In this document: piece by piece, positions 4,667 through 17,326 of the stretch
Layout: the number at the start of each line of letters is the position of its first letter
Numbering within the stretch: the stretch's first letter is position 1
DNA from: Bacillota bacterium
Lineage (GTDB): Bacteria; Bacillota; Clostridia; Christensenellales; CAG-138
Direction of reading: 5' to 3'
NCBI GenBank assembly: GCA_016286445.1
Contig: JAEESS010000006.1
Span: forward strand, 1-64,000
Length of the DNA: 64,000 nt
The notes under the pieces: model-generated
The model's database searches: none
Told to the model about the DNA's origin: nothing
The model's input: the letters and a program-made list of their open reading frames with translations, nothing else
Program-made: the position numbers and the translations under genes

Positions 4667-4696
4667 AAAACCGGGACCCGATCGGGTCCCGGTTTT
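4667..4696. terminator. bidirectional terminator between convergent genes
   Basis: AAAACCGGGACCCGATCGGGTCCCGGTTTT. Confidence 0.9.
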
Positions 4697-5942: not shown

Positions 5943-6110
5943 TTATTCTCCTTTATTGTGTTTGTTCTTCTTTTTCATAAATACGATCAGCACGACGGTG
6001 ACTGCGGCGACGACCGCGACGATGCCGAGGACCGGGAGAAGCATATGTGTGGTGACGTAGCGCAATTCTTCCGCCGGCGTCACGGGATCGCACAAAAGCA
6101 GCATGCTCAT
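5943..6110 (-). CDS. 55-aa single-pass membrane protein, tandem paralog 5 (last of the array)
   Basis: MSMLLLCDPVTPAEELRYVTTHMLLPVLGIVAVVAAVTVVLIVFMKKKNKHNKGE; RBS AGGGAGG; ATG overlaps the preceding stop (ATGA). Confidence 0.75.
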   Translation of the reverse strand: MSMLLLCDPVTPAEELRYVTTHMLLPVLGIVAVVAAVTVVLIVFMKKKNKHNKGE

Positions 6111-6268
6111 TTGCCTCCCTTTTTCTTTTTCAAAAGTACGATCAGCACGACGGTGATCGCGGCGACGGCAAGGATGACGCCGCACACCAAAACAATGTGC
6201 TCATGTAAGAATTCAAGCACAGCGAGAGACGGCGGCAGCGCCGCATCCGGCAGAATACGCATATTCAT
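6107..6268 (-). CDS. 53-aa single-pass membrane protein, tandem paralog 4
   Basis: MNMRILPDAALPPSLAVLEFLHEHIVLVCGVILAVAAITVVLIVLLKKKKGGK; overlapping stop/start with both neighbours. Below the 60-aa cutoff in this frame, so absent from the ORF track. Confidence 0.75.
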   Translation of the reverse strand: MNMRILPDAALPPSLAVLEFLHEHIVLVCGVILAVAAITVVLIVLLKKKKGGK

Positions 6269-6420
6269 TTGCCTCCCTTTTTCTTTTTCAGCAGGACGAT
6301 CAGCACGACGGTGACGGCAGCGGCGCCTGCGGCGATCCCGAGGACGATCCAGAGCATCGGCGCGTCCGGCAGGCGTTCAAAGGGATTCGTGATATGATCC
6401 GGAACGATCCACATGCTCAT
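6265..6420 (-). CDS. 51-aa single-pass membrane protein, tandem paralog 3
   Basis: MSMWIVPDHITNPFERLPDAPMLWIVLGIAAGAAAVTVVLIVLLKKKKGGK; the C-terminal GGK codons double as the RBS of the next gene. Confidence 0.75.
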   Translation of the reverse strand: MSMWIVPDHITNPFERLPDAPMLWIVLGIAAGAAAVTVVLIVLLKKKKGGK

Positions 6421-6584
6421 GCACCGTCCTGTTTCTTTTTCTTCACAAGAAGCACGATCACGACCGCGGTGATCGCGGCGACGGCGGCAACGATCCCGAC
6501 GATCCACCAGAGCGGGCTTCCCGCTGTCTGCGGTTCCACCGGCGGATCGAACGGCTCGACGGAAATATCCCCAAAAATACGCAT
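6417..6584 (-). CDS. 55-aa single-pass membrane protein, tandem paralog 2
   Basis: MRIFGDISVEPFDPPVEPQTAGSPLWWIVGIVAAVAAITAVVIVLLVKKKKQDGA; RBS AAGGAGG. Confidence 0.75.
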   Translation of the reverse strand: MRIFGDISVEPFDPPVEPQTAGSPLWWIVGIVAAVAAITAVVIVLLVKKKKQDGA

Positions 6585-6586
6585 GT

Positions 6587-6739
6587 TTATTGTCCTCCTT
6601 TTTTCTTCTTTGCCAGAAGCACGATCACAACCGCTGTGATCGCAGCGCCCGCGGCGACGATCCCGAGCACCCACCAGAGCGTGGGATCGCTCGGCGGGTC
6701 GATCGGTTCGATGATTTCGTCAAACAGGATACGCAGCAT
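6587..6739 (-). CDS. 50-aa single-pass membrane protein, tandem paralog 1 (first of the array)
   Basis: MLRILFDEIIEPIDPPSDPTLWWVLGIVAAGAAITAVVIVLLAKKKKGGQ; RBS AAGGAGG. Confidence 0.75.
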   Translation of the reverse strand: MLRILFDEIIEPIDPPSDPTLWWVLGIVAAGAAITAVVIVLLAKKKKGGQ

Positions 6740-6752
6740 ACAGATCTCCTCC

Positions 6753-7091
6753 TTAAAACAGAAATGTTGTAATCAGCAGACCCGCGCCGAACGACGCGGC
6801 GTTTGCGGTCAGAGAAACGAGGAACGGACGCTTCGCTTCGGTCGCGTATCGGTAGACGAACCACTCGACGAGCACCGCCGCGATCTCCAGCATGGCGATT
6901 GCGAGCACGCGCGGGATCGGTGTATACAGATACGCGAGCGCGTACAGCACGTTCACGACCGGGTTTGTCAGCAGGTTCGCCAGCAGTACGAACACGAGAT
7001 CGCGTCCGCGCATGCCCCAAAGGCGGCACACCGGAAGCTCGATCGCTTCCGTCAGAAGAAGCGCGAGCACGAGCGACAGCGGCCAGCTCAT
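6753..7091 (-). CDS. small multi-TM membrane protein (112 aa), unknown function
   Basis: MSWPLSLVLALLLTEAIELPVCRLWGMRGRDLVFVLLANLLTNPVVNVLYALAYLY...; overlaps the MFS stop (ATGA), so co-directional with MFS and the small-protein array. Confidence 0.65.
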   Translation of the reverse strand: MSWPLSLVLALLLTEAIELPVCRLWGMRGRDLVFVLLANLLTNPVVNVLYALAYLYTPIPRVLAIAMLEIAAVLVEWFVYRYATEAKRPFLVSLTANAASFGAGLLITTFLF

Positions 7092-8134
7092 TTTGCTTCC
7101 CTCAGCCCGAAGACGAGCAGCACGCCGGAGACTGCGGCAAGCGCGCCGAACAGCACGCTTGATTCCGGGACCGAAACGCCGAGAAAGTACGGCACGACGC
7201 CGAGGAACAGCGCGGCGGTCAAAAGCCCGAAGGCGGTCCCCTTCGCGTCTTTCAGAAGCCTTGCCGAGGCGAACAGCGTCAGCGGCATGGACATATTAAA
7301 TAGGAAGAGCGCGCAAAGCGCCAGCACCGGGCTGAGCGGGAAGAACAGGAAGAGCGCGCAGAGCCCGAGCGACAGGATCGCGGTCGGGATCGGCTTCAGC
7401 CGGTCCGCAGCGAACCCGCCCGCGGTTTTTCCGAGCGCCAGACACAGCACGGGGATCAGTCCGGACCATACCGACGGCAGGTCGGAGAGCAGATCGCCGG
7501 TCGAAAACGCCGCGGTCGTGCTCATGAGCGAGCGCAGCACGACGACGAGAAACAGCAGCGCAAGAAGCCGGAGCCCGCCCTTCGGCGTTTCAAACGACAG
7601 CGGCGCGTTGTGCGAGCCTTCCGAAAACTCCGGTTTTCCGAGCAGCAGGATCGCGCCGCCCAGGCCGAGCAGGATCGCGGGCAGCAGCCACGGCAGGGAA
7701 AGCATCTGCGCCGAAAAGACGCGTCCGAAATACAGCCCGATCGCGCCGGGGGAGACGAACACGCCGAGCGGACCGGCTTTCGTTTCCGAGCCGTTCAGCA
7801 CCTCGATCCCGCCGCCGACGTGGAACGCGCCGTTCCCGAGCCCCGCGACGACCATCGCAAGGATCGGCACGGACCGCAGCCCGAACGCGAGCGCGACGAG
7901 CGCGCAGCCGACCGCGGCAAAGAGCATGTTGCGGTTCAGCCGATCCGCAACAACGCCCATCGGCAGCTGAAAGAGAAACGCGCAGGCGTTGTACAGCACC
8001 ATACCGAGCCAGAGCTTTTCGCCCTGCAGCACGGAAAAGAACAGCGCGGCGCAGCAGAGGTCCACCGCGGCGTGCACGACCGAAAGCAGCGCGGTTTTTC
8101 TGAGGAATATTCGGTTATGAACGACAGCATTCAT
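7088..8134 (-). CDS. MFS transporter
   Basis: ~12 hydrophobic segments; PMGVVADRLNRN between TM2 and TM3; GGFAADRLK second-half motif. Confidence 0.8.
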   Translation of the reverse strand: MNAVVHNRIFLRKTALLSVVHAAVDLCCAALFFSVLQGEKLWLGMVLYNACAFLFQLPMGVVADRLNRNMLFAAVGCALVALAFGLRSVPILAMVVAGLGNGAFHVGGGIEVLNGSETKAGPLGVFVSPGAIGLYFGRVFSAQMLSLPWLLPAILLGLGGAILLLGKPEFSEGSHNAPLSFETPKGGLRLLALLFLVVVLRSLMSTTAAFSTGDLLSDLPSVWSGLIPVLCLALGKTAGGFAADRLKPIPTAILSLGLCALFLFFPLSPVLALCALFLFNMSMPLTLFASARLLKDAKGTAFGLLTAALFLGVVPYFLGVSVPESSVLFGALAAVSGVLLVFGLREAK

Positions 8135-12745: not shown

Positions 12746-14725
12746 ATGGAAAAGAAAAAGAAAGAAAACATCTTCCGGAAACTCCTTCGTTGGTTCGTAC
12801 GCGGCTTCTTCGGTCTGAAATTCGAGGAAAAGTGGTTCGGCAAGAGGGAAAAGGAACAGAAAGAAATCGTTTATAAGAACGGCGTTCCCGATGATTCGGA
12901 GCTGATCGTCAGCCCCGGCCGTCAGGTTTTCAACCGCTTCATGGAGCGCAAGTTTGCGGTGTTTTCTGTCATCGTGGTTCTGATCATGTTTGCGATCGTG
13001 TTCATCGCGCCTCACTTCATGACGAAGTACTATGATGCGTTCACCGAAACGACGCAGAAGGACCTCCCGCCGACGATGGCGTTCATGAAGGTCCCGAAGG
13101 AGCTGAAGAACAACATCAAGATGATCGACAGCTACGGTCCGTTCTCGGTCGGTCTTTCGAAAGACGGCGAAGTCTTCCTCTGGGGTATCGAAAGAATCGG
13201 CGCTTCCGGTGAAACCATGGCGATCCCGGACGAAGTCAAGAATGCGAAGATCGCATACGTTGCCGCAGGTCAGGACCACGCGATCGCGATCGGCGAAGAC
13301 GGCAAGTTCTACGGCTGGGGCAGCAACCGTTTCGGCCAGTTTGACGTTAACGAGAAGATCCTGAACAATCCGAACCTTGAGCCGGTTCCGGATGTGGTTC
13401 TGAAGGGCGAGGTCGACGTCAGCCACATCAAGAAGGTAGCTTGCGGTTATCAGGCAAGCGCGATCCTGATGGACGACGGTACGCTCTATATCTGGGGCAA
13501 CAAACAGGCGTACTCCAACATGGAGAAGTTCATCGGAAAGGACAATATCCAGGATATCGACTTTACGCTGAACTACGTCGTCGGTCTTACCGACACGCAG
13601 TCGAGTATCTTTACCGGAACGAAGGGTCTGTACGACAAAGTTCGCAGCACGATCACATCCGGCAAAGCGGTCAAGATCAAGGAATTCCTCAACGGAAGAA
13701 AGATCACCGAGATCCGTTCCACGACGACCAATATCTGTCTGCTTCTGGACGACGGCAGCATCGCGCTGACCGGCGACTTCCAGGTCGACAGCGTCGAGAT
13801 CCCGACGCTGCAGGAAGGCGAATACATCATCGATATTGAAGCGGGCACATACCACTACACCGCGCTCAGCAATCTCGGACATGTCTATTCGTTTGGCGGC
13901 GACCATTACCGTCAGGCGGAAGCACCGGTAGTGGACGGCGCAAAGAAGATCTTTGCCGGCGCGTTCCAGAGCTATGCGGTGGACGGAGAAGGCAAGCTGC
14001 TCGAAAAGTGGGGTCTTAAGGGGTATCTGTTCGGTACCGATGACCGTGGCGCGAACATCGCAGAGCGCGTGATCGCCGGCGGACGCATCACGATGACGGT
14101 CGGCGCGGTCGCCGTTATCATCGAAATCGTCATCGGCGTTTCGATCGGTCTGATGGCGGGCTTCCTCGGCGGCTGGGTCGACATCTTCCTCATGCGTGTG
14201 GCGGAGGTCTTCAGTTCGATCCCGCTGTATCCGTTCATGTTGATCCTGAGCTCCCTGCTTGCGCAGGTCTCGATGACGACAGACCAGAGATTGTACATGG
14301 TCATGGTTATCCTCGGCATCCTCGGCTGGCCCTTATTCGCGAACATCACGCGTGCGCAGGTTCTGGTCGCCCGCGAATCCGAGTATGTCACCGCGGCAAA
14401 GGCAATGGGCGTCAAGGGATCGAGAATCGCGTTCAAACACATCCTGCCGAACATCATCTCGGTTATCCTCGTCAACATGACGCTGAGCTTCGCGGCTTCC
14501 ATGCAGACGGAGACGTCGCTGTCCTTCCTCGGTTTCGGCGTCAACTATCCGCAGCCGAGCTGGGGCAACATGCTCTCCCGTGCAAGTAACGCAACCGCGG
14601 CAATCAACTTCTGGTGGCAGTGGGTGTTCACCTCTGCGATCCTCGTTTTCACGACGATCTGTATCAACACCATCGGCGACACGCTGCGCGACGTTATGGA
14701 CCCGAAGTCCACAAATGATAAGTAA
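12746..14725 (+). CDS. oppC: ABC transporter permease, OppC/DppC type, with internal 7-bladed RCC1-like propeller
   Basis: N-terminal TM1 (FAVFSVIVVLIMFAIVFIAPHF); seven ~40-residue repeats each ending G.(V/L)(F/Y).WG-like; then canonical OppC core LFGTDDRGANIAERVIAGGRITMTVGAV...EYVTAAKAMGVKGSRIAFKHILPN...SWGNML. Confidence 0.9.
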   Translation: MEKKKKENIFRKLLRWFVRGFFGLKFEEKWFGKREKEQKEIVYKNGVPDDSELIVSPGRQVFNRFMERKFAVFSVIVVLIMFAIVFIAPHFMTKYYDAFTETTQKDLPPTMAFMKVPKELKNNIKMIDSYGPFSVGLSKDGEVFLWGIERIGASGETMAIPDEVKNAKIAYVAAGQDHAIAIGEDGKFYGWGSNRFGQFDVNEKILNNPNLEPVPDVVLKGEVDVSHIKKVACGYQASAILMDDGTLYIWGNKQAYSNMEKFIGKDNIQDIDFTLNYVVGLTDTQSSIFTGTKGLYDKVRSTITSGKAVKIKEFLNGRKITEIRSTTTNICLLLDDGSIALTGDFQVDSVEIPTLQEGEYIIDIEAGTYHYTALSNLGHVYSFGGDHYRQAEAPVVDGAKKIFAGAFQSYAVDGEGKLLEKWGLKGYLFGTDDRGANIAERVIAGGRITMTVGAVAVIIEIVIGVSIGLMAGFLGGWVDIFLMRVAEVFSSIPLYPFMLILSSLLAQVSMTTDQRLYMVMVILGILGWPLFANITRAQVLVARESEYVTAAKAMGVKGSRIAFKHILPNIISVILVNMTLSFAASMQTETSLSFLGFGVNYPQPSWGNMLSRASNATAAINFWWQWVFTSAILVFTTICINTIGDTLRDVMDPKSTNDK

Positions 14726-14739
14726 AGGAGGAAAAAGCT

Positions 14740-15756
14740 ATGCCTTTGTTGGAAGTTAAACATCTTCACACCTTCTTTACGACAAAGAAAGGTATTGTCA
14801 AGGCGGTCAACGACGTTTCCTACGAACTGGATTCCGGTAAGACCATCGGTATCGTCGGCGAATCCGGTTCCGGCAAGTCCGTTTCCGCTATGAGCATTCT
14901 GCAGCTTCTGGACGGCAATGGTTATATTGAAAGCGGCGAGATCCTTCTGGAGGGCAAAGACCTCACGAAGTTCACGCTGAAGCAGATGTACAACGTCCGC
15001 GGCAACGATATCTCCGTCATCTTCCAGGAGCCGATGACGTCCCTGAACCCTGTCTTTTCGGTCGACAGACAGCTGTCCGAGCCGTTCATGATTCACCAGG
15101 GCATGGACAAAAAGGAAGCGCACCAGCACGCGCTTCAGATGCTGTACGACGTACAGATCCCGAATCCGGAAGTCGTCATTAAGCAGTATCCGCACCAGCT
15201 CTCCGGCGGTATGCGTCAGCGCGTCATGATCGCTATGGCGCTTGCCTGTAAGCCCAAGATCCTGATCGCAGACGAGCCGACGACGGCTCTGGACGTTACG
15301 ATCCAGGCGCAGATCCTGAAGCTGATGAACGATCTGAAGCAGTCGACCGGTACGGCGATCATATTCATCACGCATGACCTTGGCGTTATCAATGAAATGG
15401 CGGACGATGTTGCGGTCATGTACTGCGGACAGGTCGTTGAGCATGCGCCCGTCGACGTCATCTTCCAAGGCAACGGCGAATACAGCCATCCGTATACGGA
15501 AGGTTTGATGATGTCCATTCCGCGTCTTGAAAATGACAGCGACCATCTTGACCCGATCCCCGGTGTCGTTCCGCATCCGCTGGCACTGCCGAAGGGATGC
15601 AAATTCGGACCGCGCTGCAAGTACTGCACACAGAAATGCATCGAAGAAGAACCGGAGCTTATGGATGTAAGCGACAATCAGAAGATCAGATGCTTCTATC
15701 CTAATAAGGAGGAACGGACCAGTGTCGAACACCAAAAAATTACTGTCAATCACTAA
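14740..15756 (+). CDS. oppD: peptide ABC transporter ATP-binding protein, OppD/DppD type
   Basis: GIVGESGSGKSVSAMSI Walker A, QYPHQLSGGMRQRVMIAMALACKPKILIADEPTTALDVT, C-terminal GCKFGPRCKYC Cys motif. Confidence 0.93.
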   Translation: MPLLEVKHLHTFFTTKKGIVKAVNDVSYELDSGKTIGIVGESGSGKSVSAMSILQLLDGNGYIESGEILLEGKDLTKFTLKQMYNVRGNDISVIFQEPMTSLNPVFSVDRQLSEPFMIHQGMDKKEAHQHALQMLYDVQIPNPEVVIKQYPHQLSGGMRQRVMIAMALACKPKILIADEPTTALDVTIQAQILKLMNDLKQSTGTAIIFITHDLGVINEMADDVAVMYCGQVVEHAPVDVIFQGNGEYSHPYTEGLMMSIPRLENDSDHLDPIPGVVPHPLALPKGCKFGPRCKYCTQKCIEEEPELMDVSDNQKIRCFYPNKEERTSVEHQKITVNH

Positions 15757-17326
15757 TCTGAAGAAGTACTTTCCGGTAGCAAAGTCTTCTATTTTCCAGA
15801 GAAAGCGTCTTTATGTCCGCGCAAACGAGGACATCACGATCGACATATATGAAGGTGAGACCCTCGGTATCGTCGGTGAATCCGGTTGCGGCAAGTCAAC
15901 GCTCGGTCGTGTTCTTCTGCAGCTGTATCCGCAGACTGCGGGATGTACGCTCTATTACGGAACGACGATCGATGAGATGACTCCGAAGTATGTGATCGAT
16001 ACGCTCAATAACGAAGGGAAGTATCGGAAAGCGCTGCACAAGGCGACCGAAAAGGCAGAAGAGCTGCAGAAGAAGGTCGAAGCGGCTGGCGGCGAAGACG
16101 GGGCGGATTTCTATCTGCTTCAGGAAGCCAATATCGCAAAGTGTGAGGAGCAGACACATCTCAACAACATCGTCAAGATTTTCGGTGGATTCTTTGCGAA
16201 GGACGATCCGGAAGGACGTCGGTTGATGAAGGAGATCTTCGGTGAAAACAAAAAGCGTAAAGCGCTCATGGAGCGCCGCAAGACGCAGCAGGTCAATTTT
16301 GAGCACTTTGACCATGCATTGACCGAAGCCAAAGACAACAAAAAAGCGTCGATTGAAAGCAAGAGAAATCGCGCGGAAGAAGCGCTCAAAAACACGGATG
16401 CGCAGATCGCTGAGATTGATGCCAAGATCGCAGGCATTCAGGCAAAACTCGATCAGGTGAAGGCAAAATACGCCGGTGATCCCGAATTTGAGAAATATGA
16501 AGCGATGCGTGACAACGGCATTGACCTTGCGCGTTTGAACTATGCGGAAATGCGTACACTCAGAAAGGATATGCAGATCATCTTCCAGGATCCGTATTCC
16601 AGTCTGAATCCGCGTTTCACGGTCGGACAGATCATTGAAGAAGGTCTTGTTACACACAAATTCTTCAAGCACGGTTCTTCGAAACTGCGTGAATACATCG
16701 TTGACACAATGGAGAAATGCGGTCTGCAGGAATACATGCTGCACAGATATCCGCACCAGTTCTCCGGCGGTCAGCGTCAGCGTATTTGCATCGCGCGTGC
16801 GCTTGCTGTTCAACCGAAGTTCGTTGTTTGTGACGAGTGCGTTTCCGCATTGGACGTTTCCATTCAGTCGCAGATCATCAACCTTCTGCAGGAGCTGAAG
16901 GAAAAGCAGCGCTTGACGTACATGTTCATCTCGCATGACCTGTCGGTCGTCAAGTTTATTTCCGACCGTATTGCGGTTATGTACCTCGGCAATATCGTTG
17001 AATTATCCGACAAGAAGACGATCTTCGATGATCCGCGTCACCCGTACACGGTTGCGCTGCTGTCTTCTATTCCTACCACGGAAGCAGGTTCTGCCGACAA
17101 AGAACGTATTATTCTCGAAGGCAACATTCCGAGCCCCGTGAACCCGCCTGCAGGCTGCAAGTTCTGCACACGCTGCTACATGGCGCAGGAAAAGTGCCGC
17201 AGGGTGTCTCCGCCGCTCGTTGAGATCGAGCCGGGTCACTTCTGTGCCTGCCACTTCCCGGAGCGGAAGATCGACGAGAACAAGAACTTCCTGTTTAAGG
17301 TCAAGACTACGAAGACCGAGGCTTAA
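15722..17326 (+). CDS. oppF: peptide ABC transporter ATP-binding protein, OppF/DppF type, with ~190-aa coiled-coil insertion
   Basis: GTG start; [21 protein letters not shown] Walker [27 protein letters not shown]-loop; [38 protein letters not shown]. ~190 charged residues lie between Walker A and Q-loop. Confidence 0.9.

Follow-up and report, generated by a model that had tools for sequence, protein, structure and literature searches.

A tandem array of ~50-residue membrane proteins as a candidate surface component of an MFS-like transporter module in Clostridia

Five paralogous genes packed in tandem on the minus strand (6739-5943) of a 64,000-nt stretch of DNA from a Bacillota bacterium (hereafter the window) encode proteins of ~50 aa, each with a short head, one transmembrane (TM) segment and a Lys-rich tail, and sequence comparisons suggest that they form the final part of a conserved module consisting of an MFS-like transporter, a small membrane protein (M112) and one or more surface proteins. 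We consider the chances about even that the five proteins (P1-P5) are a multiplied, stripped-down form of the third component of this MFS-M112 module, serving as accessory or gating subunits. An initial annotation of the window had described five tandem minus-strand one-TM paralogs of this size, which the open reading frames, the mutual homology of P1-P5 (alignment A1) and the arrays of congeners all bear out. It also placed the five genes correctly, at 5943-6739, but the operon proved to be larger and takes in, closely packed on the same strand, the genes for the MFS protein, for M112 and for an M28 peptidase (Table 1). The draft assembly of the source genome comprises 2.65 Mb in 109 contigs, and its named close relatives are uncultured Clostridia, sampled for the most part from ruminant guts.

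Table 1. Features of the operon in the window (SD, Shine-Dalgarno).
Feature	Position	Strand	Basis or remarks
MFS-like transporter, 348 aa, first operon gene	7088..8134	-	Pfam MFS_1 match and position upstream of M112
M112, 112 aa, four TM	6753..7091	-	Alignment A4, AlphaFold2 model
SD AGGAGG of P1, 8 nt before ATG	6748..6753	-	Sequence and spacing
P1, 50 aa, MLRILFDEIIEPIDPP head, TM, KKKKGGQ tail	6587..6739	-	Orthologs G021_1, G022_1, G006_2
GGAGG of P2, within Lys-Gly-Gly codons of P1, spacing 9 nt	6594..6598	-	Sequence
P2, 55 aa, MRIFGDISVEPFDPPVEP head, TM, Lys tail	6417..6584	-	Orthologs G021_2, G022_2, G006_1
AGGA, sole SD-like site of P3	6430-6427	-	6 or 12 nt from candidate ATGs
P3, 49 aa (inner ATG; 51 aa from ATG 6420), MWIVPDHITNPF head	6265..6414	-	Ortholog G021_3
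GGAGG of P4, within Lys-Gly-Gly codons of P3; 3 nt to outer, 9 nt to inner ATG	6272..6276	-	
P4, 51 aa (inner ATG; 53 aa from 6268), MRILPDAALPPSLAVLEFLHEH head	6107..6262	-	Orthologs G021_4, G022_4, G011_5
GGAGG of P5, within Lys-Gly-Gly codons of P4; 3 nt to outer, 9 nt to inner ATG	6114..6118	-	
P5, 53 aa (inner ATG; 55 aa from 6110), MLLLCDPVTPAEELRYVTTHM head, no GG in tail	5943..6104	-	Orthologs G021_5, G022_5, G016_5
M28-family peptidase, 409 aa	4710..5939	-	Pfam PF04389, E = 1.5e-32

The stop codon of the MFS gene overlaps the start of M112, and the stop codon of M112 overlaps the SD sequence of P1. The product of the first gene matched Pfam MFS_1 with E = 5.5e-8, slightly under the cut-off. 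The M28 gene begins 3 nt past P5 and is probably co-transcribed with the array, which it adjoins in 8 of 11 array genomes; its absence from beside the array in the other three (G009, G010 and G016) rules it out as an obligate partner, and it is probably dispensable to the module. A strong terminator-like hairpin directly downstream of the M28 gene (4667-4696) is a plausible operon end. Elsewhere in the window, two plus-strand genes, read by eye, appear to carry insertions: an oligopeptide-type ABC permease of 659 aa (12746-14725) with what look like RCC1-type repeats (DGKFYGWGSNRFGQ-like motifs) past its first TM segment, which is unusual for a permease, and an OppF-like ATPase of 534 aa (15722-17326) with an apparent long, charged, coiled-coil-like insertion separating Walker A from the remainder of the domain.

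The array is not a chance arrangement, since a P1-P5 profile recovered it at the corresponding position in ten further congeneric genomes (2-6 copies each, E down to 1e-27) and dN/dS is well below 1; conservation in related genomes, on which the initial annotation had made its reading depend, was thus confirmed. In related genomes, low-scoring matches of the same profile to the C-terminal ends of frames of 250-3000 aa were set aside as generic TM-Lys tails. Linkage to the transporter was assessed by searching named genomes with the M112 profile (A2) alone, so that the MFS gene had no part in the query. This search returned 63 named loci in Christensenellales, Lachnospiraceae (including Hungatella and Blautia), Oscillospiraceae and one Bacilli MAG, and a homolog of the window's MFS gene lay directly upstream on the same strand in 60 of them (within 60 nt in 41). 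A 61st locus (L154) had a partial MFS match, downstream, and none was found at M112 loci L161, L173 and L134 (of G281). At order level the MFS gene was present in 13 of the 14 neighbourhoods checked, and within the genus the array was never found without it. Pfam and NCBIfam held no specific family for the module (the transporter being weakly MFS_1), PHROGs and PADLOC held nothing for it, and no description of it was found in the open-access papers searched, although one may exist elsewhere.

M112 itself matched nothing in Pfam or NCBIfam above the cut-off. Its AlphaFold2 model is a four-helix bundle (pLDDT 94), with which a fold search of the PDB gave no match at E <= 0.001; sequence searches of the PDB with the MFS, M112 and SH3b-partner profiles likewise gave nothing useful. 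Across 46 aligned sequences (A4), the invariant polar residues E18, N39, T42, N43, E69, E76, N97 and S100 fall within the predicted, intramembrane helices. In some genomes, including that of the window, the M112 domain also forms the C-terminal part of longer proteins with a signal peptide and an ectodomain, whose mature end reads A-D-M-G-P-K-P or A-N-A-P-x-P; none of the five such loci checked had an MFS gene nearby. M112 can therefore act without the transporter, since both these fused forms and some of the M112 loci have no MFS gene that was found, and it is probably oriented with its N-terminus outside and, even where it stands by itself, tied to a peptide exposed at the surface. Examples of the fused form with the mature end ANAPxP and no MFS nearby are G000:C48:42383-42703 and G006:C4:85555-85884, and the form is seen in many other Clostridia as frames of 250-330 aa.

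Beside or between the MFS and M112 genes lie genes for membrane proteins with two features in common: a D-[VIAM]-x-x-(x)-P motif at the N-terminus and, at the C-terminus, a TM segment with a K/R tail. One of the two main forms (alignment A6), frequent in relatives, has 240-300 aa, a signal peptide, the mature end A-D-V-I-W-E-P, an ectodomain and the TM segment; in A6, D24 is invariant, next to the A-D junction, and the best matches in a fold search with a model of this type were mostly SH3b-bearing proteins (endolysin, lysostaphin, InlB). The other main form is small (about 40-70 aa), has no signal peptide and occurs singly, in pairs or in triplets, for example in Oscillospiraceae at L172 (MVNTLPLDIAPDPEP and MLSLLPLDVAPVP) and as three proteins in a row in G066 (L132). 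Proteins of 250-400 aa with different ectodomains are seen as well. Of the small one-TM open reading frames, 25 of 40 near M112 have the D-x-P motif but none of 11 distant ones does (Fisher p = 3e-4, the frames not all being independent). A second small one-TM kind (43-46 aa, KEIKK-like tail, no D-x-P head) was seen at L183:3057-3188, L188:4775-4915, L181:3693-3833 and L186:3693-3833, where the surface protein of the M112 locus is of the ADMGAPEIEPY or ADMGMDF type.

The array proteins occupy the operon position of this third component and, with the exception of G015_2, which has no clear D-x-P head, they have both the D-x(3-4)-P motif and the TM-K/R tail; the head Asp is invariant across 30 aligned paralogs. 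They share these features with the TM-anchored SH3b proteins of A6 but differ from them in occurring in several copies, and they were not filed as SH3b-type because, as one-TM proteins of 49-55 aa, they have neither SH3b domains nor a signal peptide. Over the TM segment and tail, the array and SH3b-type profiles aligned with an hhalign probability of 96.9 (E = 1.4e-10), and in the array genomes of the genus the A6 profile matched nothing but array members at E <= 1e-3. Genomes of the genus had either the array (11) or an SH3b protein (4) and never both (0.056 by chance alone). At locus L122 of G063, a 75-aa SP-ADVVIGP-TM gene adjoins a 266-aa SP-ADPIIVP-long-ectodomain-TM gene, with matching signal peptides and near-identical N- and C-termini. 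TM-Lys tails converge easily, and heads of such small length cannot by themselves prove homology statistically; the same place, the same motif and complementary occurrence are stronger arguments for descent than the similarity of the TM tails. Shared descent of the array and SH3b-type TM-tail forms is likely on these comparisons. Triplets of small one-TM genes, mostly with D-x-P heads, also lie beside M112 at L130 and L132 and, because these belong to two other genera, tandem multiplication of the small genes may have occurred more than once.

If P1-P5 are indeed a multiplied third component, the loss would have been of the SH3b part and the signal peptide, leaving in this genus the D-x-P N-terminus and the TM-Lys tail in 2-6 distinct copies. 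The tails of array copies have a charge of +3 to +6 and the heads are, with few exceptions, negative, so by the positive-inside rule each protein would span the membrane once with the N-terminus outside and the C-terminus inside. The small proteins would then sit beside the MFS-M112 complex, presenting an acidic D-x-P peptide at its outer face with the TM segment packed against it, and could tune or gate transport; the several paralogs may assemble together or be interchangeable. Because the Asp...Pro peptide and the TM segment are the sole feature common to the small and the SH3b-type partners, we propose them as the part that would bind MFS-M112, the ectodomains being optional additions. A different possibility is that the small proteins are independent sensors at the interface of membrane and wall, placed in the operon with MFS-M112 for regulation only and making no contact with the pair. 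The SH3b parts of the relatives are of wall-binding types and the fused signal peptide-ectodomain-M112 proteins have no MFS gene nearby, both in keeping with such a role, but the near-universal adjacency and the recurrence of the D-x-P or A-N-x-P N-terminus on the M112-fused proteins speak for a physical connection with, at the least, M112. We regard independent sensing as unlikely, though far from negligible.

A gating role for P1-P5 would resemble that of AcrZ, MgtS and similar small membrane proteins, which are about 30-55 aa long and control transporters to which they bind directly, AcrZ being a single membrane helix (PMC10710835). The array proteins are likewise single-span, in this size range and encoded with a transporter, a likeness that would be one of functional kind, not of sequence family. 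The array differs in consisting of 2-6 conserved tandem paralogs that lie in the operon of the transporter and would expose acidic D-x-P heads to the outside. Like LPXTG and CTERM sorting tails (Gram_pos_anchor, PF00746; GG_III-CTERM, NF041738), the array proteins end in a TM segment followed by positive residues, but they lack a sorting motif and a signal peptide and carry no large secreted domain. P2 scored 23.3 bits against NF041738 (cut-off 22 bits), P3 and P5 scored 11.7 and 10.7, and P1 and P4 gave no match; no LPXTG motif was found in P1-P5, and scores for PF00746 and TIGR01167 were under the cut-off. Apart from such weak or borderline matches to the TM tail, Pfam, NCBIfam, PHROGs and PADLOC contained no family for the small proteins. 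Small transporter subunits are thus already known; what is new, as far as tested, is a multi-paralog array in a transporter module that includes a helper with no fold match.

The C-terminal Gly-Gly of several array proteins appears to owe its presence to translation. Counted from the outer ATG where there are two, the frames run 6739-6587, 6584-6417, 6420-6265, 6268-6107 and 6110-5943. In two-ATG copies the outer ATG is mostly 2-4 nt from the SD sequence and the inner one (Met3) 7-10 nt, and most single-ATG copies have a spacing of 7-9 nt; because its spacing matches that of the single-ATG copies, the inner ATG is probably the translated start, while P3 could use either. With the inner starts P1-P5 have 50, 55, 49, 51 and 53 aa and all gaps within the array are 2 nt, so the ATGA-type gene overlaps of the initial annotation are probably not real. 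Its statement that each gene has its own GGAGG holds except for P3, which has AGGA only, and the proposed double use of the Lys-Gly-Gly codons, which also supply the following gene with its ribosome-binding site, was seen at three of the four junctions (P1-P2, P3-P4 and P4-P5). Across species, 18 of 30 copies closely trailed by another had a GG tail, as against none of the 16 remaining copies (Fisher p = 6e-5). Since GG is confined to copies tightly trailed by another, it is probably a by-product of the next gene's ribosome-binding site, and the C-terminal Lys-Gly-Gly would chiefly serve to provide that site. A constraint on ribosome binding can in this way write itself into the C-terminus of a protein.

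Tandem small peptides with cationic tails beside transporter and peptidase genes could also be membrane-active peptides, such as multi-peptide bacteriocins or pheromones, exported by the MFS protein and trimmed by, for instance, the M28 peptidase. Leaderless multi-peptide bacteriocins (aureocin A70, garvicin KS) are indeed several short peptides encoded in tandem without a leader, whereas the array proteins have an acidic head, a full TM span and a Lys tail, and the module usually comes with a large surface protein. Compared with class II and leaderless bacteriocins, there is no leader and no double glycine before a cleavage site, GG being C-terminal only and tracking the ribosome-binding site, and the acidic heads are conserved between species. 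In 3 of 11 genomes no M28 gene adjoins the array, and the MFS gene is kept in the absence of small peptides: because MFS and M112 remain paired also at loci whose third gene encodes a large TM-anchored SH3b protein, the transporter is not a dedicated peptide exporter. An exported-peptide role is accordingly very improbable. Even less can be said for toxic one-TM peptides of the type I toxin-antitoxin kind (Ldr- or Fst-like), which the size, hydrophobicity and tandem repetition of the proteins and a weak PHROG match between P5 and a family resembling TciB (E = 0.0045) would fit, but not the single compact operon behind MFS and M112, the conserved, class-specific heads, the absence of a PADLOC match or the absence of a promoter-like (sigma-70-like) site on either strand of the array in a consensus scan.

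Paralogs of the array within one genome are about 33% identical in the head and about 60% in the anchor, so the variable head on a constant anchor described by the initial annotation stands between the copies of a genome but not between orthologs, whose heads and anchors are about equally constrained. Orthologs of different species gave dN/dS values of 0.23 for heads, 0.33 for TM segments and 0.14 for tails, the head classes having been assigned partly by head likeness; repeated on array position alone, the comparison of the window genome with G021 gave 86 of 94 identical residues in heads and 103 of 120 in TM segments. In a tree of the copies, weakly resolved for such short proteins, copies grouped by class across genomes, not by genome, and the single clear recent duplication was that of copies 2 and 3 in G010. 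Ongoing diversification of exposed heads, which the greater difference of paralog heads within a genome had suggested, is hardly credible against orthologous heads that evolve no faster than TM segments, are kept at the same positions and fall into the same classes across genomes; the initial annotation had itself taken similar rates in heads and anchors as evidence against diversification. Nor does a self-propagating repeat unit agree with this tree. From these sequences, duplication and divergence of the array are old, and selection today preserves each head.

Beyond the reading of P1-P5 as accessory or gating subunits, we suggest, more tentatively and as a possibility that is doubtful at present, a three-part machine found across Clostridia in which the Asp...Pro N-terminus would be the common docking or gating element, and in which the mini-proteins, having replaced a wall-binding SH3b sensor, would be exchangeable gating peptides and adapt a single transporter to different cues. 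The surface component of this module, widespread in gut Clostridia, forms a series with an SH3b wall-binding protein at one end and arrays of ~50-aa peptides at the other, which lets one ask what its minimal functional part is, and the series raises the question of why up to six paralogous mini-subunits should be kept for one transporter.
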